Shown here: one piece after another, positions 6,600 to 16,796 of the stretch
How the letters are laid out: each line of letters opens with the position of its first letter
Position numbering within the stretch: position 1 is the stretch's first letter
Source of the DNA: Amycolatopsis sp. GM8
GTDB taxonomy: Bacteria; Actinomycetota; Actinomycetes; Mycobacteriales; Pseudonocardiaceae
Length of the DNA stretch: 64,000 nucleotides
Assembly (NCBI RefSeq): GCF_021653975.1
Contig: NZ_JAJKFK010000003.1
Location: 62,001 to 126,000, forward strand
Direction of reading: 5' to 3'
Made by a program: the position numbers and the translations under genes
The notes under the pieces: generated by a model
What the model saw: only the letters and a program-made list of their open reading frames with translations
Database searches by the model: none
What the model was told of the DNA's origin: nothing

Positions 6600-7790
6600 A
6601 TGGGTCCGCTCGACGGAGTGCGGGTGCTCGACATGGGCAACCTCGCCGCCGGCCCGATCACGGCGACGTTGCTCGGCGACCTCGGTGCCGAGGTGATCAA
6701 GATCGAACATCCGCGGATCCCGGACGCCGCCCGGGGCTACGGCCCGCAGTACCGGGGCAAGTCGCTGTACTGGCGGTCGATCGCCCGGAACAAGCGGTGC
6801 GTGACACTCGACCTCTCCCGGCCCGAGGGCCGGCCGGTCCTCGACGCCCTCATCGAGCGGACGGACATCCTGGTCGAGAACTTCCGGCCGGGCACGCTCG
6901 AGAAGTGGGGCATCACCTGGCCCGGCATCCAGGCGGTCAATCCCCGGCTGATCCTCCTGCGGACCAGCGCCTTCGGGCAGTCCGGCCCGTACCGCCAGTT
7001 TCCCGGCTTCGGGACGCTCGCCGAGGCCATGAGCGGCTACGCGTTCATCACCGGCGAAGCCGATGGCCCACCGCAACTCCCCCAGTTCCCGCTCGCCGAC
7101 GGCCTGGCCGCCTACATGGGCGCCGTCGGTGTGCTCGCGGCGCTGCGGCACCGCAACGAAACCGGGCGGGGGCAGTGGATCGACAACAACCTCTACGAGC
7201 CGATCATGCGCCTGATCGAGATCGTGAACATGGAGTACCGGCACCTCGGCACGGTGCGGCAGCGGACGGGCAGCCGGCTGGGGGATTCCTCGCCGCGTGG
7301 CGCCTACCGCACGGCGACGAAGGACACCTGGGTCGCACTGTCGGGATCGAGCAACGCGACCGCCCTGCGGGCCCTGCGCGCGATCGGCCGGGACGACTGG
7401 GCCGATGATCCGGCGTTCGCGACCAACCCGGGACGGGTCGAGCGCAGCGACGAGATCCACCAGGCACTCGCGGATTGGATCGGTGCCCACGAGGTCGAGG
7501 AGGTGCTCGCGACCTTCCGGGCGGCCGACGCCCCGATCGGCCAGATCTACGACGCCGCAACCGTCGCCGAGGACCCGCACTTCCGGGACCGGGAGCTGTT
7601 CGTGCGGGTGCCGGACGACGACGGTGAGATGATCTCGGTCCAGAACGTGATGCCGCGGTTCTCCGAGACACCGGGATCGGTGCGCCGGCTCGGCGTGAGC
7701 CACGGCCACGACACCGACGAGATCTACGGTGACCTGCTGGGTTTCCCGGCCGACCAGCTGGCCGCCCTCCGCGAGAGCGGCGTCATCTGA
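6600..7790 (+). CDS. CaiB/BaiF (class III) CoA-transferase
   Basis: A 396-residue CoA-transferase that moves CoA between carboxylic acids. Family signatures: LDGVRVLDMGNLAAGPITA at the N-terminus, GDLGAEVIKIEHP, VLVENFRPGTLEKWG-type sequence and GRGQWIDNNLYEP, whose Asp aligns with the catalytic aspartate that forms the acyl anhydride. A GGAGG ribosome site sits four bases before the ATG. The stop overlaps the next start (TGATG), pairing it with a CitE-like lyase: together they would activate a hydroxy-acid and split the CoA ester, as in citramalate or itaconate use. The acid itself is unknown. Confidence 0.88.
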   Translation: MGPLDGVRVLDMGNLAAGPITATLLGDLGAEVIKIEHPRIPDAARGYGPQYRGKSLYWRSIARNKRCVTLDLSRPEGRPVLDALIERTDILVENFRPGTLEKWGITWPGIQAVNPRLILLRTSAFGQSGPYRQFPGFGTLAEAMSGYAFITGEADGPPQLPQFPLADGLAAYMGAVGVLAALRHRNETGRGQWIDNNLYEPIMRLIEIVNMEYRHLGTVRQRTGSRLGDSSPRGAYRTATKDTWVALSGSSNATALRALRAIGRDDWADDPAFATNPGRVERSDEIHQALADWIGAHEVEEVLATFRAADAPIGQIYDAATVAEDPHFRDRELFVRVPDDDGEMISVQNVMPRFSETPGSVRRLGVSHGHDTDEIYGDLLGFPADQLAALRESGVI

Positions 7791-8662
7791 TGGCCGCTCC
7801 CGTCCTGGCCGAGAGCCGGAGCTTTCTGTTCTGTCCCGCCCATGACGCGCGCAAGACCGCGCGGGTCGACGACTTCGGCGCGGACGCCGTGGTCCTCGAC
7901 CTCGAAGACGCCGTGCCGCCCCACGAGAAGGCCGGTGCGCGCGGGCTCGCCCGGAAGGCGCTCGCCGGAATCGTGCACGCCCACGCCGGTGTCCGCAGTA
8001 ACGGCCTGGACACCGGGTTGGCCCTAGACGACATCGCAGCGGTGGTCTCGGCGGGCCTGGACTTCGTCGTCGTGCCGAAGGTGACCACACCCGAGGACCT
8101 CGCCACGGTCGACCGGCACCTCGGCGAATGCGAGGAGCGGGCCGGTCTCGCACCGGGTTCGGTGGCGCTGGTGCCCCTGATCGAGCGGGTGAGCGCCGTG
8201 CTGTCCGTCGCCGAGCTGGTCAAGGCTGCCCCCGCCCGGGTGCCGCGGCTGGCGTTCGGGCTGGGTGACTTCGCCCTCGAGGCCGGCATCCCGGTCGCGA
8301 TGGGCGAGGCGATGCTGACCGCGAAGTCCCTGATCGTCATGGCCTCCGCCGCCGCCGGCCTCGCCCGTCCGGTCGACGGGCCCTATCTGACGCTGGCGGA
8401 CCCCGACGGGCTGGCCGCCGACTCCGCGCGCAGCCACGCCCTCGGGTTCGGCGGGCGGGTCGTCGTGCATCCACCTCAGGTCGGACCGGTCAACGCGTCC
8501 TACCCGCTCGCCGACCACCAGGCCCTGTCGCGCGCGACCCGGCTGGTCGAGGAGTTCGAGGCCTCGATCGCGACCGGTAAGGCGGCGATGCGCTTCGAGG
8601 GGGAATTCGTCGACTACCCCGGCTACCTCGCGGCCAAGCGGTTGCTGGCGCGCAACCACTAG
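7790..8662 (+). CDS. HpcH/HpaI family CoA-ester lyase (CitE-like)
   Basis: A 290-residue TIM-barrel lyase of the CitE/malyl-CoA lyase family, which splits 3-hydroxyacyl-CoA esters by Mg-dependent retro-Claisen chemistry. Canonical residues are present: VVLDLEDAV (acidic pair), the Arg of GVRSNG, the Glu of PLIERV and the Asp of FGLGDFALE; the C-terminal GGRVVVHPPQV loop is also typical. It is translationally coupled to the CoA-transferase. Its stop overlaps the stop of the convergent GntR gene by four bases. A citramalyl-CoA or malyl-CoA-like substrate is plausible, not shown. Confidence 0.87.
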   Translation: MAAPVLAESRSFLFCPAHDARKTARVDDFGADAVVLDLEDAVPPHEKAGARGLARKALAGIVHAHAGVRSNGLDTGLALDDIAAVVSAGLDFVVVPKVTTPEDLATVDRHLGECEERAGLAPGSVALVPLIERVSAVLSVAELVKAAPARVPRLAFGLGDFALEAGIPVAMGEAMLTAKSLIVMASAAAGLARPVDGPYLTLADPDGLAADSARSHALGFGGRVVVHPPQVGPVNASYPLADHQALSRATRLVEEFEASIATGKAAMRFEGEFVDYPGYLAAKRLLARNH

Positions 8663-9306
8663 CCGCGAGTGTCGTCGGCCTCGGAGACGGGCGAGCCCGG
8701 GTAGAACCGCCGCGAGCGCAGGATGTTGGAGCTGCGGGCCGCCTCCGCCCACTCGGGATCCCGGGCGCGGACCGCCTCCACGATCTCCCGGTGCTGCAGG
8801 ACGCTGTAGTGGATGTCGTCGTCGGAATAGCGGTCGAAGAGGTGGACGATCCAGGTCGCCTTCCCGAGGTGCTCCGCGATACTGGCCAGCCGCGGGGACC
8901 GGGCGGCGGTCTGGAGGGCGGTGTTGAACTCACCGCCCAGCCGGATGGTGTCCTCACGGGTGCAGTCCGGGCGGGACATCTCGTCGACGATCCGGGTCAG
9001 CTCGGCGATGTCGGCCGCGTCGGCCCGGGTCGCGGCGAAGCGGGCGGCGGCTCCTTCCACCATGGCCCGGATCCGGAGCAGATCGTCGTACTCTTCGGGC
9101 CCCCAATCCGTCACCACCGCGCCGCGGTGCGGGACCAGCGTGACCAGGCCCTCCACGCTCAGCGAATGCAGCGCTTCGCGGACGGGGGTCCTGCTGGTCC
9201 CGATCTCCTCGGCGATGATGTCCTCACCCAGCCGGGATCCCGGGGGGTACTTGCCGGTCAGGATGCCGAACCGGATCGCTTCGGCCGCCCGTGTGCGTGC
9301 GCTCAT
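8659..9306 (-). CDS. GntR family regulator (FadR/FCD subgroup)
   Basis: A 215-residue GntR regulator. The N-terminal winged helix is clear: AIRFGILTGKYPPGSRLGE, then IGTSRTPVREALHSLSVEGL and VTLVPHRGAVVTDW. The C-terminal helical FCD domain follows (LLRIRAMVEGAAARFAA ... GGEFNTALQTAARS ... LQHREIVEAVRARDPEWAE), with the usual metal-binding Asp/His positions. It lies convergent to the CoA-transferase/lyase pair and 36 bp behind the carboxymuconolactone-type gene, so it could be read with either unit. FCD regulators usually bind small organic acids and act as repressors. Confidence 0.9.
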   Translation of the reverse strand: MSARTRAAEAIRFGILTGKYPPGSRLGEDIIAEEIGTSRTPVREALHSLSVEGLVTLVPHRGAVVTDWGPEEYDDLLRIRAMVEGAAARFAATRADAADIAELTRIVDEMSRPDCTREDTIRLGGEFNTALQTAARSPRLASIAEHLGKATWIVHLFDRYSDDDIHYSVLQHREIVEAVRARDPEWAEAARSSNILRSRRFYPGSPVSEADDTRG

Positions 9307-9342
9307 CGCACACCATTATCGACGACCCGCCTACCCGGTGCC

Positions 9343-9756
9343 CTAACCGCCGGTCGTGTTGTGCGCCTTCTCCGCCTCGTACTCCGCCAGTGCCTCGGCG
9401 AGCAAGGGATAGGCGACGAGGGGCACGTGGTAACCCGCGGTCAGTCCGGTGAGCCGGAGTGTCTCCACGATCTGCGCGGGCTCCACACCGGCCCGGAGCG
9501 CTTCGAGCATGTGGAAGCGGCAACCGCCGTGGAAGTGGTCGGCCGCGTCCAAGGCGAGCAGGACGAGCTGACGCACCGGCTCCGACAGCGAGGTGCCGGG
9601 CCCCATCGCGTGCTGATAGCTGGCGTGGAAGTCCAGTAGTGCCTGCGGATCGAAGCGAGCGGCGACGTCGAACGCTTCGGGCATGTGGCCACGATCCGCG
9701 CGGATCGTGGCGAGGACGTCCTCGGCCGAGGGACCGGAGGTGGTCTCCGTGCTCAT
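9343..9756 (-). CDS. Carboxymuconolactone decarboxylase-like protein
   Basis: A 137-residue all-helical protein of the CMD/AhpD fold: MPEAFDVAARFDPQALLDFHA, LSEPVRQLVLLALDAADHFHGGCRFHMLEAL and AGVEPAQIVETLRL. The AhpD redox pair (CxxC then His) is not present; the motif reads HxxCxxH, so peroxidase activity is unlikely. ATG 9756 (MSTETTSGPSAEDVL) is chosen because the longer frame runs back into the upstream gene. It is the last gene of the operon running from 13903, four bases after the dehydroquinase-like gene, and probably acts on the product of that pathway. Confidence 0.8.
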   Translation of the reverse strand: MSTETTSGPSAEDVLATIRADRGHMPEAFDVAARFDPQALLDFHASYQHAMGPGTSLSEPVRQLVLLALDAADHFHGGCRFHMLEALRAGVEPAQIVETLRLTGLTAGYHVPLVAYPLLAEALAEYEAEKAHNTTGG

Positions 9757-9760
9757 CGAC

Positions 9761-10297
9761 CTACTCCGCCTTGGCGCCGAAGAAGGTCTCGTCGTCCAGG
9801 GCGAGCACCAGGGACAGCAAAGCACCCGCGTAGCTGTACTCGCGCATGCCCATGAACTGACCGGACACGAACGGCGTGAAAGTGGACTCGCCCGCGCCGT
9901 AGACCGGGCCGCGCGCGGTCGCGGCGGAGGCCCTGATGTTGGCGAAATGCACCTCGATCACCGGCTTGCCGGTGTCGTAGAGGGCGAACGGGACCGCGTG
10001 ACTGGACGTGGTCAGCCCCGCCGGGTTGACGACGTAACCGTCGACCCGGTCGCTCGACTCGTGGATGTACTCCAGGATGTCGCCCTCGTGGTTCGACATG
10101 AACCGCTCCACCACGACGCCGAGCCGGGCGCCCCAGGCCTGGGCGAATTCGCCGAGCCCTTCCGCGGAGACATTGGGGCCGTACATCCGCTTGTTCCGCC
10201 GAGCGAGATTGGAGACGTTGGGGCCGTCGATCACGGCGATGGTGTAGCGCTGGTCGCTCGTGCGGAGTCCTTCGATGGCAGATGGCGTCGTTGTCAC
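9761..10297 (-). CDS. Type II 3-dehydroquinate dehydratase-like protein with altered active site
   Basis: A 178-residue protein with the flavodoxin-like fold of type II dehydroquinases: IAVIDGPNVSNLARRNKRMYG aligns with the GPNLNxLGxREPxxYG motif, keeping the Arg and Tyr of the active-site lid. SNHEGDILEYIHE, NPAG and EVHFANI are also kept. Compared from memory with AroQ of M. tuberculosis, His81 is Thr (GLTTSS), Asp88 is Phe and Arg112 is Ala, and a glycine-rich insertion follows. GTG 10297 overlaps the preceding stop (GTGA). Its place inside a catabolic operon argues against a shikimate role. It is probably a related hydratase or dehydratase of unknown substrate. Confidence 0.75.
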   Translation of the reverse strand: MTTTPSAIEGLRTSDQRYTIAVIDGPNVSNLARRNKRMYGPNVSAEGLGEFAQAWGARLGVVVERFMSNHEGDILEYIHESSDRVDGYVVNPAGLTTSSHAVPFALYDTGKPVIEVHFANIRASAATARGPVYGAGESTFTPFVSGQFMGMREYSYAGALLSLVLALDDETFFGAKAE

Positions 10298-11265
10298 TGT
10301 GCTGGCTCGCTTTCGTGTGTCGTGTTCGTGCTGGTGGTCCAGGAGAAGGTCAGTGCGTCCGGTGCCCGCGCCGTATCGGGCACGGGGCCGACGTGCCGGA
10401 CGAAGCCCAGGCCGGGCACCCCGGCGCCGTCGAGCCAGTTGGCCGTGTCGACAAGGGCGGCGAGGTCGGTTCCGGTGTCGTAGCCGGCGAGTTCGAGGGC
10501 CTGGGCGGCGTCCTCGGTGCACACCCCGCCACCGCGCTGGCCCGGCATCGCGGGATGGCCACCGCTGCCGGCGAGCGAGACGTCGATGGTGCCGACGCCG
10601 AGGGCGGCGAGTTCGAGGACGTTCGCCACGCCGAGCCCCCGGTTGTCGTGGACCTGGACGGTCAGCGACCCGAGGGGCACATGGCGGGCCGCGGCGTCGA
10701 CCAGCTCGCGGATCTGGGGCGGGGCGGCGTAGCCGACGGAGTCAGCCAGGACCCACTCGCTGATGCCGATGTCGACGAGCCGGCGGGCCAGCGGCTCGAG
10801 CTCCGCCGGGCCGCGCGCGGGCCCGGTGGGGCCGCCCCACGCGAAGATGACGTAGGTGCCCAGGGCGATCCCCAGCTCCGCGGCGACGGCTGCCAAGCGC
10901 TCCAGCACGACGAGCGAGTCGGCGGTGCTGCGCCCGATGTTGGCCCTGGCAAAGGCGTCGTCGGCCGAGAGCAGGAAAGTGGCGGAGTCCGCACCGGCGG
11001 CGGCAGCGGCGCGCAGGCCCCGCTCGTTCCCGATACAACAGCCCAGGGTCAGACCGGGAGCCGCGCGCACCGCGGCGAACACCTCGGCGGCGTCGGCCAG
11101 GCCCGGGATGAGATCGGGACGCACGAACGAGGACAGCTCGAAGTCCCGGATCCCGGCCCGGACGAGCCGTTGCACGAGCTCGATCTTCACCTCGGTCGGC
11201 ACCTGGTGCGCCTGGAAAGTGAGCCGCGGCGCGATCTCGCGCAGCCGGACGGCCGGGCCGCTCAT
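10294..11265 (-). CDS. HMG-CoA lyase-like DRE-TIM protein lacking canonical catalytic residues
   Basis: A 323-residue protein that aligns along its length with hydroxymethylglutaryl-CoA lyase: REIAPRLTFQ, FELSSFVRPDLIPGLADAAEV, VLADSVGYAAP, VQVHDNRGLGVANVL and GGHPAMPGQRGGGVCTED. The usual catalytic and metal residues differ: PRDGLQ reads PRLTFQ (Asp lost), VHCHD reads VQVHD (first His lost), the GGCP cysteine is His, and the Asn of SGN is Gly. Fold and ancestry are clear, but normal HMG-CoA cleavage is doubtful. ATG 11265 overlaps the ligase stop (ATGA), so it is tightly coupled to the acyl-CoA ligase and the dehydroquinase-like gene. Confidence 0.8.
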   Translation of the reverse strand: MSGPAVRLREIAPRLTFQAHQVPTEVKIELVQRLVRAGIRDFELSSFVRPDLIPGLADAAEVFAAVRAAPGLTLGCCIGNERGLRAAAAAGADSATFLLSADDAFARANIGRSTADSLVVLERLAAVAAELGIALGTYVIFAWGGPTGPARGPAELEPLARRLVDIGISEWVLADSVGYAAPPQIRELVDAAARHVPLGSLTVQVHDNRGLGVANVLELAALGVGTIDVSLAGSGGHPAMPGQRGGGVCTEDAAQALELAGYDTGTDLAALVDTANWLDGAGVPGLGFVRHVGPVPDTARAPDALTFSWTTSTNTTHESEPAQ

Positions 11266-12872
11266 CGGTGCCGGGTCGGGGTCAGGCCCGCGGCTTCGGC
11301 GTCCCACGCGTCATCGGTGAGCCCGGCCTCCCGCAGCACCGCCTTACGGATCTTGCCGGTGGGGGTCGCGGGAAACTCTCCGACGAGGCGGTAGTAGCGA
11401 GGCACCATGAAGTACGGCATGGCCCGGTCGCAGTGTGCGAAGAGATCCTTCAGGTCGAGTTCGGCGCCCTCGGCGACCTGGATGACGGCCATCACCTCCT
11501 GCTCGCCGAGATCGGAGGCGACCCCGATCGCGGCGGCCTCGGCCACGGCGGGATGGGCCAGCAGGACGGCCTCGACCTCCTGGGACGACACGTTCTCGCC
11601 GCGGCGGCGCAGCGCGTCCTTCTTGCGGTCGACGAAGTAGAAGTAGCCGTCCTCGTCGGTGAAGCCGAGGTCTCCGGTGTGCCACCACAGGTCGCGGGAG
11701 TTCTCCAGGGTGGCCTCGGGCTGGTGGTAGTACCCGGACAGCATGATGTGCGGGACGCGGGGCCGGTACACGATCTCCCCGACCTGCCCGGGTGCGACCG
11801 GGAAGCCCAGGTCGTCGTGCACCTCCAGGATGGTCGTGGCGGACGGGACGCCCATGGAGCCGATCTTGCGCCGCTGGATGGGGTTCCAGACGATCGTCTT
11901 GATCTCGGTCAGGCCGTAGCCCTCCACGACGTGCACCCCGAAGCGTTCCTCGACCGCGGTCAGCACCGGGGCCGGGGCGGGCGCGGCGAAGACCTTGTGG
12001 GCGGGATGGTCCCGGTCGCGGTCCGACGGCGGCTGGGCGAGCAGCATCGGCAGGACCGAACCGAGGGCGTTGAACTGGCTGACCTCGTGGCGGCGGATCT
12101 CGTCCCAGAACCGGCTCGCACTGAACCGCCGGCCGAGCACGATGGTGGCGCCCGCGACGATGGCGTGCAAGGAAATGTTGAACTTCGCGGCCCCGTGGAA
12201 CAGCGGCAGACAGGTGTAGAGCCGTTCGTCCGCAGTGGTCTCCATGGCCACCGCGAACTCGTGCGCGGCGACCACGGGCATCAGCGTCGGGTAGACCGCG
12301 CCCTTGCTGCGGCCGGTGGTCCCAGAGGTCAGCATGATGCCCACCGGGTCGTCCAGGCCGACCTCGGGGAACGACGTCGACTCATCGCCCCGGGCGAGCA
12401 TGGCTTGCCAGGTGAGGATCTCGACACCGGGCAGCGACACACCGGCCGGGACCGTGTCGGCCAGCAGCACGATCGTCCGCAGCGCGTGGGGTCGTTCCGG
12501 CAGCGCGGCGACCAGGTCGAGCAGCCCGGGCTCGGTGAGCAGGACCTGCACATCGGTGTGGCCGAGCGCGTGTTCGAGGAAGGCACCCTTGTAGGCGGTG
12601 TTCACCGGGACCTCGACGAGGCCCGCGCGGGCGATCCCGAAGAAGGCGACGAGGACCTCGACGCGGTTGGGCAGGAACACCCCGACCGACGTGCCGGGGG
12701 CCGCTCCGAGGCCGAGCAGACCCCGTGCCACCGCGGACGCCGACGCGTCCAGTTCGGCGTAACTGAGCTGCTCGTCTTCGAACACCAGGGCCGGTTTGCC
12801 GGGGGTGCGGCCGGCACGGTCGGCGAGCAGTCCGCCGACCGTGCCGCCGCCCAGCGATTGCAGGTCGAGCAC
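11262..12872 (-). CDS. AMP-dependent acyl-CoA ligase
   Basis: A 536-residue ANL-superfamily ligase that makes acyl-CoA from an acid, ATP and CoA. Motifs in order: LTSGTTGRSKGA (P-loop), VVEGYGLTEIK (A5), WWHTGDLGFTDEDGYFYFVDRKKD (A7/A8 hinge) and PTGKIRK with the catalytic Lys. The open frame continues to 13214, but GTG 12872 (VLDLQSLGGG) has an AAGGAG ribosome site and lies two bases behind the preceding stop. It stands between the SsuD-like monooxygenase and the HMG-CoA-lyase-like gene and presumably activates the pathway acid. Related to ligases for medium-chain or branched acids; the substrate is unknown. Confidence 0.88.
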   Translation of the reverse strand: MLDLQSLGGGTVGGLLADRAGRTPGKPALVFEDEQLSYAELDASASAVARGLLGLGAAPGTSVGVFLPNRVEVLVAFFGIARAGLVEVPVNTAYKGAFLEHALGHTDVQVLLTEPGLLDLVAALPERPHALRTIVLLADTVPAGVSLPGVEILTWQAMLARGDESTSFPEVGLDDPVGIMLTSGTTGRSKGAVYPTLMPVVAAHEFAVAMETTADERLYTCLPLFHGAAKFNISLHAIVAGATIVLGRRFSASRFWDEIRRHEVSQFNALGSVLPMLLAQPPSDRDRDHPAHKVFAAPAPAPVLTAVEERFGVHVVEGYGLTEIKTIVWNPIQRRKIGSMGVPSATTILEVHDDLGFPVAPGQVGEIVYRPRVPHIMLSGYYHQPEATLENSRDLWWHTGDLGFTDEDGYFYFVDRKKDALRRRGENVSSQEVEAVLLAHPAVAEAAAIGVASDLGEQEVMAVIQVAEGAELDLKDLFAHCDRAMPYFMVPRYYRLVGEFPATPTGKIRKAVLREAGLTDDAWDAEAAGLTPTRHR

Positions 12873-12874
12873 GG

Positions 12875-13903
12875 TCAAAGCTCCTTCTTGGCGCGCAACA
12901 GGAAGTTCTCCAGGCCAGGATCCCAGGCGGCCTCGGCCCCCGTCGTGACAAGGAAGGTGCCGATCCCCAGTTCGTGGTAGGTGCCGAGGGTGTCCAGGAT
13001 CTGCTCCTCGGTCCCGACCAGCGCCTGGGAGTTGGCGAACCCACCCAGCAGCTTGGTCAGCCCGGTCCAGAAACAGGTGTCGTGGAGCTCCTCGTCGGTC
13101 AGCGCCAACGCCCGCTGCCGCCCGACGGAGTTGTCGGTCGCCGAGGAGCGCAGGAAGGTGTGGTCGCCCTGGGCCGCGGCGATCTGCTGCTCGACCGCGC
13201 GGGCCTTCGCCCACGCCTCGTCCTCGGTGTCCCCGATGAACAGCCGCAGGCTCAGCGAGAAGTCCATCGGCCGGCCGTAGCCGTCCGCGGCGGCCCGTAC
13301 CCGCGAGATGCGCTCTCGCGTGCCGGCGAACGGCTCCCCCCAGAGCATGTAGAGGTCGGCGTGCCGGGCACCGAAGTCCACGGCGGCGTCACTCTCGCCG
13401 CCCATGAAGATCGGGACCTGGCCCTGGACCGGGCGGGTCAGGATCTTGACGCTCTCCGCGGAGTAGAAGCGGCCCTCGTGATCGAACGACGTCGGCTCGG
13501 TCCAGGTCCGGCGGACGAGATCCAGGTACTCGATCGCGCGCTCGTAGCGCTCCGATTTCGGGGTGTGGTCGCTCTCGCGGTGCAGGTCCTTGTCCGAGCC
13601 CCCCACCACGACGTTGATCGCCAATCGCCCGCGTGCCAGCACATCCAGGGTGGCGAAGTACCGGGCCGCCGCGGTCGGGGCCATCACGCCGGGGCGGTGG
13701 GCCACGATCGGCGAGAACTTCTCGGTCATCGCCAGCATGTAGGGCGCGGTCGCGTGGTTGTGCGGCCAGATCGACGAGTACCCCACGAGCACCCGATCGA
13801 TCGCCTCCGATGCGTCGAGCTCACGCACCCGCTCGGCGAGCCGGGCGGTCTCGGTCTCGCCCGGTTCGAGCGGCTGGAGCCCCGTGAAGAAGTCGACCAT
13901 CAC
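12875..13903 (-). CDS. SsuD-like FMNH2-dependent monooxygenase (LLM class)
   Basis: A 342-residue luciferase-like monooxygenase close to alkanesulfonate monooxygenases: FSPIVAHRPGVMAPTAAARYFATLDVLARGRLAINVVVGG is diagnostic, followed by SERYERAIEYLDLVRRTW and QVPIFMGGESDAAVDFGARHADLY. Such enzymes use reduced flavin from a partner reductase to oxidise or cleave C-S, C-N or C-C bonds. No flavin reductase gene is adjacent. It is the first gene of a compact operon continuing with the acyl-CoA ligase and lies 29 bp downstream of a candidate MarR site. Confidence 0.87.
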   Translation of the reverse strand: MMVDFFTGLQPLEPGETETARLAERVRELDASEAIDRVLVGYSSIWPHNHATAPYMLAMTEKFSPIVAHRPGVMAPTAAARYFATLDVLARGRLAINVVVGGSDKDLHRESDHTPKSERYERAIEYLDLVRRTWTEPTSFDHEGRFYSAESVKILTRPVQGQVPIFMGGESDAAVDFGARHADLYMLWGEPFAGTRERISRVRAAADGYGRPMDFSLSLRLFIGDTEDEAWAKARAVEQQIAAAQGDHTFLRSSATDNSVGRQRALALTDEELHDTCFWTGLTKLLGGFANSQALVGTEEQILDTLGTYHELGIGTFLVTTGAEAAWDPGLENFLLRAKKEL

Positions 13904-13931: not shown

Positions 13932-13951
13932 CATATAAGCATGCTGGCTAT
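13932..13951. promoter_or_regulatory. Candidate MarR operator upstream of the LLM operon
   Basis: The sequence CATATAAGCATGCTGGCTAT matches the site at 14981-15000 in 14 of 20 positions and the palindrome at 16879-16898 in 13 of 20, sharing AAGCATGCT. It lies just before the 13903 start and slightly overlaps the 3' end of the dehydrogenase gene, which suggests the LLM operon has its own regulated promoter. Confidence 0.5.
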
Positions 13952-14967
13952 TTCCCCAGTGTGATCTGCCGGAGGATCTCCACCACGGGCGCGGTGACCT
14001 CGATCGTTCCGCGACGGAGGGTCTCCTCCCGCAGGGCCGCCGAGCGGTCGAAGGGAACCCGGACCGCCCCTCCGCCCTCGACGGGACGGGTCGCGCGGAC
14101 GGATTGGGCGAAATCGGCCGCCCTGGCGCGGAAATCGGCCGCGTCACCGAGCGTCGACGGGTCGACGATGACGGCCAGGAACCCGCAGTCGGAGGCGCCG
14201 ACCGGGGTCGCCGAAGCGCCGGAGAGCATGCCCAGCAAGTGGACGACGAGGGCGAGCCCGGAACCCTTGTGCCCACCCCACACAGTGAAGGCGCCTTGCA
14301 GGGCTGCGGCGGCGTCGGTGGTCGGCCGGCCCTCGGGGTCGTAAGCCCTCCCCTCGGGCAGCGGCTCGCCGAGCCGCGCCGCCAGGGTGACCTCGGCGTG
14401 CGTGATGGACGAGGTGCCGATGTCCCAGATCAGCGGGCCGCCGGCGGTCGGGAACCCGAACGCGATCGGGTTGGTGCTGAACCGGGATTCGGTGCCGCCG
14501 TACGGCGCGACGAGGGCGGGGCCACTGCCCGCGATCATGCCGACGAACCCGGCGTCGATGACGCGCTCGAGGTAGTACGAGAACATCCCCGTGTACCAAG
14601 TCTGGCGGGCGCTGACCACGGCCATGCCCTGGGCCCGCGCCTTCTCCAGGCCGAGCTCCATCGCGCGGACCGCGACGAGGTAGCCGACCTGGTCCCCACC
14701 GTCCAGCGCCGCCGACACCGGGGTCTCCCGCTCGACCCGGATCGGCTGCGGTGGCGCGGTGGCGCGGATCCGCTCGATGATCGACACGGCGCGGGCCAGC
14801 CCGGCATAGGACAGTCCGCGCAGCTCGCAGTCCATCAGGTGGTCCGCGATGATCGCGGCCTCATCTGCGGTGTAGCCGACGGCGACCAGCGCCTCGGTCA
14901 CGATGCGGAGGGCGTCGCCGAGGGTCAGGCTGACCGTCGCCGCGGAGGTGGTGGTCGAACCAGGCAT
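13948..14967 (-). CDS. Malate/L-lactate dehydrogenase family oxidoreductase
   Basis: A 339-residue NAD(P)-dependent 2-hydroxyacid/2-ketoacid oxidoreductase of the Ldh_2 family (malate, lactate, ureidoglycolate, sulfolactate and diketogulonate enzymes). Family features: the N-terminal helix LRIVTEALVAVGYTADEAAIIADHL, YGGTESRFSTNPIAFGFPT, IWDIGTSSITHAEV and WGGHKGSGLALVVHLLGML with the conserved GGHKG. ATG 14967 has a strong GGAGG site; the longer frame up to 16089 is an artefact of GC-rich DNA and runs through other genes. It is divergent from the MarR gene. The specific hydroxy-acid cannot be read. Confidence 0.86.
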   Translation of the reverse strand: MPGSTTTSAATVSLTLGDALRIVTEALVAVGYTADEAAIIADHLMDCELRGLSYAGLARAVSIIERIRATAPPQPIRVERETPVSAALDGGDQVGYLVAVRAMELGLEKARAQGMAVVSARQTWYTGMFSYYLERVIDAGFVGMIAGSGPALVAPYGGTESRFSTNPIAFGFPTAGGPLIWDIGTSSITHAEVTLAARLGEPLPEGRAYDPEGRPTTDAAAALQGAFTVWGGHKGSGLALVVHLLGMLSGASATPVGASDCGFLAVIVDPSTLGDAADFRARAADFAQSVRATRPVEGGGAVRVPFDRSAALREETLRRGTIEVTAPVVEILRQITLGK

Positions 14968-15009: not shown

Positions 15010-15477
15010 GTGGATATTGCTGCGGGCCAGTCGGACTACCTCACCGATGCGGTCGTCCGCCTCGAACGTGCGGTGGCGAACATCGGGGCGATGCGACTCA
15101 AACCGTGGCGGATGACGCTGTCGGGTTACGCCGCACTCAAGATCCTGGAGCGGCAACCCAATCTGTCGCTGGCCCAGCTGTCCCGGCGCTGCTTCGTGAA
15201 GCCCCAGACGATGACCAGGATCGTCGCCGAACTGGAGCGCCGGGAATGGGTGGACCGGAGCCCGCACCCGGAGAGCGACCGAGCCATCTCGCTGGCCCTG
15301 ACCCCCGCGGGCCGGGCCAGCCTCGGTGAGATGGCGGCCGAGGTCGACAAGATCGAGTCGACCCTCGGCGGCATGCTCGATCCCGGCCAGTTCCCCGAAC
15401 TGGTCGCCACCCTCCGGCGATGCGCCGTCGCGGTCGAGGCCGAGATCAAGCATGCGCGCCAAGCGAACCGGCACTGA
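15010..15477 (+). CDS. MarR family transcriptional regulator
   Basis: A 155-residue MarR-type winged helix protein. The DNA-binding part is LSGYAALKILERQPNLSLAQLSRRCFVKPQTMTRIVAELERREWVDRSPHPESDRAI with the wing SLALTPAGRASL; the flanking helices form the dimer. GTG 15010 gives the expected N-terminus (MDIAAGQSDYLTDAVVRLERAV). No clear ribosome site precedes it, and the leader may be very short. It lies between the two transcription units it probably controls, as suggested by the shared motif in three promoter regions. MarR proteins usually respond to phenolic or carboxylic compounds. Confidence 0.9.
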   Translation: MDIAAGQSDYLTDAVVRLERAVANIGAMRLKPWRMTLSGYAALKILERQPNLSLAQLSRRCFVKPQTMTRIVAELERREWVDRSPHPESDRAISLALTPAGRASLGEMAAEVDKIESTLGGMLDPGQFPELVATLRRCAVAVEAEIKHARQANRH

Positions 15478-15482
15478 ACGAC

Positions 15483-16796
15483 TCAGGCCGGCTCGGGTGC
15501 GACCGGCGTGGCCCGCTCCGGGGTTCGGGGCGCCAGCACGGTGCGCAGGCCGAGGGCGGTGATCCCGCTCAGCACGGCGGAGCCCATGAGCACGAACGCG
15601 CCGGCGCGGTTGTCCCCCGTCGCCTGGACCAGCCATTGGGTCAGGTAGATGATCGATCCACCGAAGATGGCGACGGCCACGTTGAAGGCCACCGAAACGC
15701 CGGTGCCGCGCGCGTGCACGGGGAACAGTTCGATGTAGGTGATCGGGGCCATCCCGGAATAGAACGACGGCCCGGCGGCCAGCAGTACCGCGCAGACGGC
15801 GAGCAGCCAGGGGTTCGACGCCGCCGTCAGCCCGGCCATCAGCGGATAGGACGCGACGAGGATGATCGCCGTCGCGATGAGCAGCGCCGGGCGGCGCCCG
15901 ATCCGGTCCGACAGGCGGCCGCCCGCGACGACGAGCCCGATGCCGACGGCCAGCGCGCACCCGACCACGGCCGTCGCCGTCACGGCCGAGAAGTGCAGCT
16001 GGATGATCAGGTTCTGCACGTAGGTGAAGGCCAGGTAGAAACCGACGGCGTGGGTGGCGGCCACCCCGACCAGCAGCGCGAAGCGCCACAGCCGCCGGTC
16101 GACCGGCGTCCGTTCCCGCGCGTTGTCCCGGACCTCGACGAACTCCGGGGTTTCGCCCAGCCGGCCCCGCAGGTAGAGCCCGATCGCGCCCAGCGGGAGC
16201 GCCAGCAGGAAGGGCACCCGCCAGCCCCAGGACAGCATCGCCGCGGGGCTCAGCGAGAGGTTCAGCCCCACCACGACGAACGCGCCGATGAGGAGGCCGG
16301 CGAGGCTGCCCATCTGGACCCGGCTGGACATCTCCCCCTTGCGGTCCGCGGGCGCGAATTCGGCGGCGTAGATGATCGCGGTGCCGTACTCCCCGCCCGC
16401 CGCGAGCCCCTGCAGCATGCGCAGGACGACCAGCAGGATGGGCGCGGCGATCCCGATCGTCTTCGCTGTGGGCAGCAGGCCGATCAGCGTGCTGACCGTC
16501 GCCATGCCGATCAGCGTCAGCACCAGGGCGGGCTTGCGGCCGAGCCGGTCCGACGCCGGCCCGAACAGCAGCGCGCCGACCGGCCGGATGACGAACGCGG
16601 CGCCGAACACCGCGAACGCCGAGAGCAACGCGACGCCCGGGGTGGCGTTGGGGAAGAAGTTCTTCGCTATCACGGAGGCCACGAACCCGTACACCGCGTA
16701 GTCGTAGTTCTCGACGGTGTTGCCGATCGCGGCGGCCAGCGTGGCGCGGCGCAGAGTGCCCGCACTTACAGATTCTGCTTCGGATAGTGCCGTCAT
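15483..16796 (-). CDS. MFS transporter, metabolite:H+ symporter (MHS) type
   Basis: A 437-residue twelve-helix transporter of the MHS group, which imports organic acids such as shikimate, alpha-ketoglutarate, citrate or phthalate-type compounds. Signatures: AAIGNTVENYDYAVYGFVASVIAKNFFP in helix 1, LFGPASDRLGRKPAL in loop 2-3, QGLAAGGEYGTAIIYAAEFAP in helix 4 and GGRLSDRIGRRPAL in loop 8-9. It is convergent with MarR (five-base gap) and divergent from the SnoaL-like gene across a palindromic operator. It probably imports the substrate of the neighbouring operon. Confidence 0.9.
   Translation of the reverse strand: MTALSEAESVSAGTLRRATLAAAIGNTVENYDYAVYGFVASVIAKNFFPNATPGVALLSAFAVFGAAFVIRPVGALLFGPASDRLGRKPALVLTLIGMATVSTLIGLLPTAKTIGIAAPILLVVLRMLQGLAAGGEYGTAIIYAAEFAPADRKGEMSSRVQMGSLAGLLIGAFVVVGLNLSLSPAAMLSWGWRVPFLLALPLGAIGLYLRGRLGETPEFVEVRDNARERTPVDRRLWRFALLVGVAATHAVGFYLAFTYVQNLIIQLHFSAVTATAVVGCALAVGIGLVVAGGRLSDRIGRRPALLIATAIILVASYPLMAGLTAASNPWLLAVCAVLLAAGPSFYSGMAPITYIELFPVHARGTGVSVAFNVAVAIFGGSIIYLTQWLVQATGDNRAGAFVLMGSAVLSGITALGLRTVLAPRTPERATPVAPEPA

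Follow-up and report, generated by a model that had tools for sequence, protein, structure and literature searches.

A conserved protein family with the HMG-CoA lyase fold and exchanged active-site residues, encoded beside a monooxygenase and an acyl-CoA ligase

To our knowledge, 3-hydroxy-3-methylglutaryl-coenzyme A (HMG-CoA) lyases, like the other members of the DRE-TIM superfamily, are regarded as metal enzymes. In HMG-CoA lyase (HMGCL), a divalent metal activates the 3-hydroxyl group, and Arg41 acts on the thioester enolate. The DRE-TIM metallolyases, which include the isopropylmalate, homocitrate, and citramalate synthases and the DmpG-type aldolases, are defined by an Asp-Arg-Glu set together with an HxH metal motif. 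The subject of this study is a gene in a 64,000-nucleotide stretch of Amycolatopsis sp. GM8 (contig NZ_JAJKFK010000003.1, positions 62,001 to 126,000; hereafter the window) that encodes a protein with the HMG-CoA lyase fold and a changed active site. According to a review (PMC6941031), catalysis by human mitochondrial HMG-CoA lyase depends most critically on Arg41, Glu72, Tyr167, and Cys266, and its Mg2+ ligands are Asp42, His233, His235, and Asn275. The gene and the relevant codons, placed by alignments (Gly247 by the multiple alignment), are as follows; residues of the HMGCL-like protein are numbered from the ATG at 11265, and HMGCL numbers are those of the human enzyme.

10294..11265, (-) strand: HMG-CoA-lyase-fold protein with a changed active site, 323 amino acids (ATG at 11265, stop at 10294)
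11221..11223, (-) strand: Leu15 codon, replaces metal ligand Asp42
11035..11040, (-) strand: Cys76-Cys77 codons, invariant in the family; mostly Val/Ala-Leu in canonical lyases
10654..10656, (-) strand: Gln204 codon, replaces metal ligand His233
10648..10650, (-) strand: His206 codon, kept metal-ligand position (His235)
10555..10557, (-) strand: His237 codon, replaces catalytic Cys266
10525..10527, (-) strand: Gly247 codon, replaces metal ligand Asn275

The HMGCL-like protein has retained the HMGL-like TIM-barrel fold, in agreement with the first-pass annotation, which had been made from the window's letters and had aligned it with HMG-CoA lyase. In phmmer searches, residues 20 to 292 match human HMGCL (2cw6) at an E value of 5e-39 and residues 20 to 294 match the Bacillus subtilis lyase (1ydo) at 2e-39, both ranges being counted from an upstream GTG. 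The E values against human and bacterial HMG-CoA lyases of solved structure (2cw6, 1ydo, and 6nds among them) range from 2e-39 to 2e-31. Identities to solved lyases are 28 to 32%, and the PF00682 match scores 96.7 bits (cut-off 29). The best NCBIfam model is PRK05692 (HMG-CoA lyase), with 193.4 bits, which is under its cut-off of 246. A separate canonical HMG-CoA lyase is encoded elsewhere in the same genome (L004).

Arg41, Glu72, and Tyr167 of HMGCL are kept as Arg14, Glu43, and Tyr138, and Asp204, His235, and Glu279 are likewise unchanged, whereas Asp42, His233, Cys266, and Asn275 are replaced by Leu15, Gln204, His237, and Gly247, respectively. These are the four changes that had been read from the window at the outset, and all are confirmed; the accompanying statement that the metal and catalytic residues were lost holds for three of the four metal ligands and for Cys266, but not for His235, the second His of HxH, which is kept as His206. 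The multiple alignment has D, H, H, C, and N at positions 42, 233, 235, 266, and 275 in 28 of 28 canonical lyases and L, Q, H, H, and G in all 21 rows of the family (two of them from one genome); Cys266 is thus His in every family row. The same changes are found in 51 of 51 rows when every fetched ortholog locus is counted, a set of 36 distinct sequences in which many genomes occur twice and which includes L041, L060-L089, and duplicates. With respect to the DRE-TIM metallolyases, the Arg and Glu of the motif are kept, the Asp is Leu, and HxH is QxH. In comparison with HMG-CoA lyase, the family also has a new Cys-Cys pair, Asp102, Trp171, and Tyr179.

Relative to canonical lyases, two residues are missing from the loop that follows PR, and the loop near GGG has one extra residue. 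Around position 42 the window's protein offers no Asp, and around position 275 no Asn, and phmmer together with the multiple alignment of 28 canonical lyases gave no sign that the canonical residues had been displaced by local gaps. Some relatives (e.g., L043) have an Asp four residues further on (FQD), and L057 has an Asn three residues earlier; a gap-shift artefact was rejected because the use of the shifted Asp or Asn would break the PR and GG alignment. The Leu at position 42 that appears in pairwise tblastn of some canonical lyases (e.g., L012) results from gap placement, as all 28 have Asp. His20 was rejected as a new catalytic residue, since it is Phe in L056.

The changed proteins form a group of their own. 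In an IQ-TREE phylogeny of 48 rows, 20 changed proteins lie on one side of a branch with support of 100/100, apart from the 28 intact HMGCLs. L049 and L008 have contigs of equal length (770,621) and were treated as one genome; the tree was made without L049, the counts of loop conservation and of monooxygenase residues were made without L008, and the 21-row alignment has both. The ratio of nonsynonymous to synonymous substitution rates (dN/dS; Nei-Gojobori) is 0.12 to 0.24 in ten pairs, and the frames of 31 further rows, each read to the first stop, are open for 302 to 317 codons. The family is under purifying selection, and the four replacements are fixed.

Invariant positions are more frequent in the catalytic-face loops (46 of 87) than elsewhere (50 of 193; p 2e-5). 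Nine positions (15, 77, 148, 151, 176, 204, 237, 247, and 249) are invariant in the 20 family rows and differ from a canonical residue that is at least 90% conserved. All nine are in the catalytic-face loops (p 2e-5, or p 0.011 if only canonical columns conserved to at least 90% are counted). This enrichment depends on the model, because the loops were defined by predicted secondary structure. The active site itself has been exchanged and has not eroded.

A pattern scan of GTDB genome contigs gave 16 related loci with 58 to 90% identity in Amycolatopsis, Pseudonocardia, Streptomyces, Nocardia, and Nocardioides, and the four changes are present in 16 of 16. Relatives were found on four of 72,556 plasmid records, namely, two of Pseudonocardia (80%), one of Polymorphobacter (58%), and one of Paraburkholderia (55%); three of the four were examined, and all carry the four changes. 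Of these four records (NZ_CP012185, NZ_CP012182, NZ_CP080242, and NZ_CP110397), the two Pseudonocardia ones are from Apterostigma ants, which are fungus growers, and the Polymorphobacter and Paraburkholderia ones are from lichens. Orthologs occur in 18 of 390 genomes of the window's family, 3 of 298 of its order, 1 of 394 of its class, and 1 of 396 of its phylum; the last three sets overlap, and the window's own genome is counted in each of them. No other genome matched in the class (1e-60) or, with a profile, in the phylum (1e-90). Because the ortholog counts are so low, the family is rare and patchy among the sampled genomes. In the order-level search, the best matches listed are the gene itself (100%), two orthologs (67 to 68%), and others with at most 40% identity. 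Intermediates between canonical and changed lyases were not found among the 27 listed matches that were fetched (L010-L036) and L004, all of which have D, H, H, C, and N.

The HMG-CoA-lyase-fold gene is located in the following neighborhood, in which the counts refer to 26 nonredundant loci.

15483..16796, (-) strand: major facilitator superfamily (MFS) transporter, most similar to metabolite/H+ symporters (no match reaches its curated cut-off); 17/26 loci
15010..15477, (+) strand: MarR-type regulator, divergent; 24/26 loci with the window query, 84% identity to a protein of L058 annotated as a MarR regulator
13948..14967, (-) strand: Ldh2-family dehydrogenase (malate/lactate/sulfolactate type); 26/26 loci, 24 by the window's protein and 2 by a Polymorphobacter query
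12875..13903, (-) strand: SsuD-like flavin mononucleotide (FMN)-dependent monooxygenase of the luciferase-like (LLM) type; 26/26 loci
11262..12872, (-) strand: adenosine monophosphate (AMP)-forming acyl-CoA ligase, ATGA overlap with the HMGCL-like gene; 26/26 loci
9761..10297, (-) strand: accessory type II dehydroquinase-like protein, GTGA overlap with the HMGCL-like gene; 7/26 loci
9343..9756, (-) strand: accessory carboxymuconolactone-decarboxylase-like protein, Pfam CMD 21.4 bits, below the cut-off of 23; 4/26 loci with the window query

The two overlaps, ATGA upstream and GTGA downstream, bear out the tight operon behind an acyl-CoA ligase that the first-pass annotation had described. In the 26-locus count, L041 (a near-copy of L040) was excluded, and L076, L077, L078, L080, L081, L087, and L088 (7 of the 14 later regions) were omitted since their contigs have the lengths of others in the count; no region was taken for G1244, G1245, G1275, or plasmid NZ_CP012182. 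The monooxygenase, the ligase, and the HMGCL-like gene are together on one strand at all 26 loci. The gene order is Ldh-monooxygenase-ligase-lyase-like in 23 actinobacterial loci and monooxygenase-lyase-like-ligase in both proteobacterial loci. The Ldh2-type gene is on the opposite strand in L052; in L057, it is located approximately 5 kilobases (kb) downstream, and a second copy is present in the opposite orientation. In L045 (Streptomyces iranensis, at 8376-9967), the ligase match is broken into two pieces that overlap slightly, which points to a frameshift or an error in the sequence. 

Further genes of the cassette are a 4HBT thioesterase (13/26), a TcuA-like flavoprotein (12/26; in pieces in L043 and L084), RibBA (9/26), and a flavin reductase (21/26, of which 19 were found by the main query and L037 and L057 by other queries). 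Orthologs of the monooxygenase with at least 79% identity occur in exactly the same 18 of 390 family genomes as the HMGCL-like protein, and the two queries match the same four plasmids. The relatives with the four changes thus group together in the tree and share the monooxygenase and the ligase at every locus, as a check proposed with the first-pass annotation had asked of them, and the family is set apart from HMG-CoA lyase by its gene neighborhood as well as by its tree group. The result is stronger than what had been stated at that time: the protein is no isolated oddity but a member of a conserved family in which the set of core genes is fixed. The co-occurrence indicates inheritance as one cassette; a single pathway, with its core kept in two phyla, is the simplest reading, which co-occurrence alone does not prove.

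Because the family is well kept and is accompanied by the same monooxygenase and CoA ligase in every relative examined, the HMGCL-like protein probably performs a new step in a breakdown pathway not yet described. We give a probability of roughly 0.5 to the reading that it belongs to a family of its own, derived from the HMG-CoA lyases, and that it is a functional enzyme encoded in a mobile catabolic cassette and performing His-based acyl-CoA chemistry without the canonical metal center. The core of this cassette would consist of the AMP-forming CoA ligase, the SsuD-like FMN monooxygenase, and the Ldh2-type dehydrogenase; a transporter and a flavin reductase often accompany them. A CoA ester is the likely substrate because the ligase gene is next door, and the HMGCL-like protein would still bind an acyl-CoA that is made by the ligase or oxidized by the monooxygenase. 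Activation of a 3-hydroxyl by a divalent metal is unlikely because Asp42, His233, and Asn275 are gone. Arg14, which corresponds to Arg41, may stabilize the thioester enolate, and the bond beside the enolate may be made or broken by general acid-base catalysis with His206, the new His237, or both, so that Arg14 and His206/His237 would stand in for the usual metal center. We infer the CoA thioester substrate, the metal loss, and the His-based mechanism alike. More tentatively, the protein may be a metal-independent enzyme of the DRE-TIM fold whose family exchanged the metal center and the catalytic Cys for a His-based acid-base site; it would act in a degradation pathway that is undescribed and has spread by horizontal transfer, with the FMN monooxygenase as its obligate partner.

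Several observations weigh against the reading of a functional, His-based acyl-CoA enzyme. Loop 235-245, which holds His237, has a predicted local distance difference test score below 50 in the predicted structure, and the reach of His237 to the active site is thus not placed. The retention of Tyr167 is weak evidence, because only 20 of the 28 canonical rows have Tyr at this position. The linkage to the ligase suggests a CoA ester substrate but is no proof of it, and Gln204, His206, His237, Asp102, and Cys76/77 together could form a metal site. A search of the first 25 kb of the window with three flavin reductase queries gave no match, and none was found in L038, L040, L042, and L056. Lastly, more distant monooxygenases (41 to 47% identity) occur in seven further genomes in which, at the same E-value limit, there is no HMGCL-like ortholog.

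That a metal is still used, held by rebuilt ligands (Gln204, His206, His237, and perhaps Asp102 or Cys76/77), is a rather unlikely alternative. Two of the four canonical ligand positions (Gln204 and His206) have metal-capable residues, and, in the secondary-structure prediction, the new invariant His237, Asp102, Cys76, and Cys77 fall where barrel strands end or just beyond; however, His235 is the only canonical ligand that survives, with Leu and Gly at two of the three changed positions, and the model places the His237 loop without confidence. The loss of the catalytic Cys and three metal ligands, together with the close co-occurrence with the monooxygenase, would also suit a noncatalytic partner whose role is to bind or present a CoA ester or to support the monooxygenase. 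We consider such a pseudoenzyme improbable, given that the catalytic-face loops are better conserved than the rest of the protein and that the replacements, among them the His that has taken the place of Cys, are fixed, while Arg41 and Glu72 are kept.

An HMG-CoA lyase, or a lyase of a close analogue, that tolerates the changes would have the same fold and PRK05692 as its best match, as is found here, but the score is under the cut-off of that model, the genome has a canonical copy elsewhere, and the lost residues are among those named as critical or metal binding in PMC6941031; this explanation is very improbable. Although catalytic residues are lost, a decaying gene is scarcely credible: the dN/dS values, the open frames, the wide spread, and the fixed replacements refute it. 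The first-pass annotation had likewise held that the gene was not simply decaying and was probably selected for another reaction, and the sequence-based evidence of fixed active-site replacements in a conserved family supports both parts of that statement.

What is new here is the conserved HMGCL-fold family with an exchanged active site; the fold family itself was already known. If the preferred reading of a His-based acyl-CoA enzyme is true, a family without most of the metal site but with Arg41 and Glu72 would illustrate how the DRE-TIM fold can change its chemistry. The close association of the family with a single monooxygenase and a single CoA ligase points to a catabolic pathway in actinomycetes and on two lichen-derived proteobacterial plasmids. 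Searches of a set of open-access papers listed none whose title describes such a gene cluster.

Among proteins of solved structure, the best relatives of the partner monooxygenase are the SsuD/MsuD alkanesulfonate monooxygenases (E 1e-42). At 26 of 26 loci, the monooxygenase keeps the Trp of WGEP and the final Arg of the QRR stretch, whereas the positions aligned with the sulfonate-site residues Arg226 and His228 of SsuD are Ser and Arg at 26 of 26. The score against TIGR03565 (alkanesulfonate monooxygenase) is 173.3 bits, under the cut-off of 518.2. The dehydrogenase is nearest to L-sulfolactate dehydrogenase among solved structures. On the Polymorphobacter plasmid (L056, 9412-10632), a SorA-like sulfite dehydrogenase (528.5 bits; cut-off 600) is located upstream of the cassette. 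A sulfonate degradation pathway was not adopted, in view of SorA at only 1 of 26 loci and of the Ser and Arg at the Arg226/His228 positions.

Tricarballylate-like acids are a possible lead to the substrate, suggested by the TcuA-like gene at 12 of 26 loci and by transporter matches that include TcuC; for the MFS transporter, ProP outscores TcuC, and both are below the cut-off. The ant and lichen origin of the four plasmid matches is a further lead, from a small number. In Paraburkholderia D15, genes for a thiolase, a MaoC protein, a CoA ester lyase, and a CoA transferase adjoin the cluster. At 6600-8662 (+) of the window, on the opposite strand and downstream of the operon end, a CaiB-type CoA transferase is followed by a CitE/HpcH-like lyase; no CaiB-type or CitE/HpcH-like match was found in the available stretches around the 16 GTDB relatives. 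On a plasmid of Cupriavidus oxalaticus (L090, 19072-20637), the F420_oxidored-like protein found in the proteobacterial cassettes has a relative with 59% identity. This relative spans the first part of an "amidohydrolase family protein," as though the two were fused, and an Ldh relative (60%) is nearby; in the plasmid searches, neither the monooxygenase nor the HMGCL-like protein matched this plasmid.

The accessory dehydroquinase-like protein scores 91.8 bits against TIGR01088 (type II 3-dehydroquinate dehydratase, aroQ), under the cut-off of 169.85. It retains the Tyr of YG, the Asn of NP, and the His of EVH, and it differs at the His of SHTS and at the Arg residues after NI, which are presumably functional positions of type II dehydroquinase. 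Judged from these residues, it is possibly a second repurposed enzyme.
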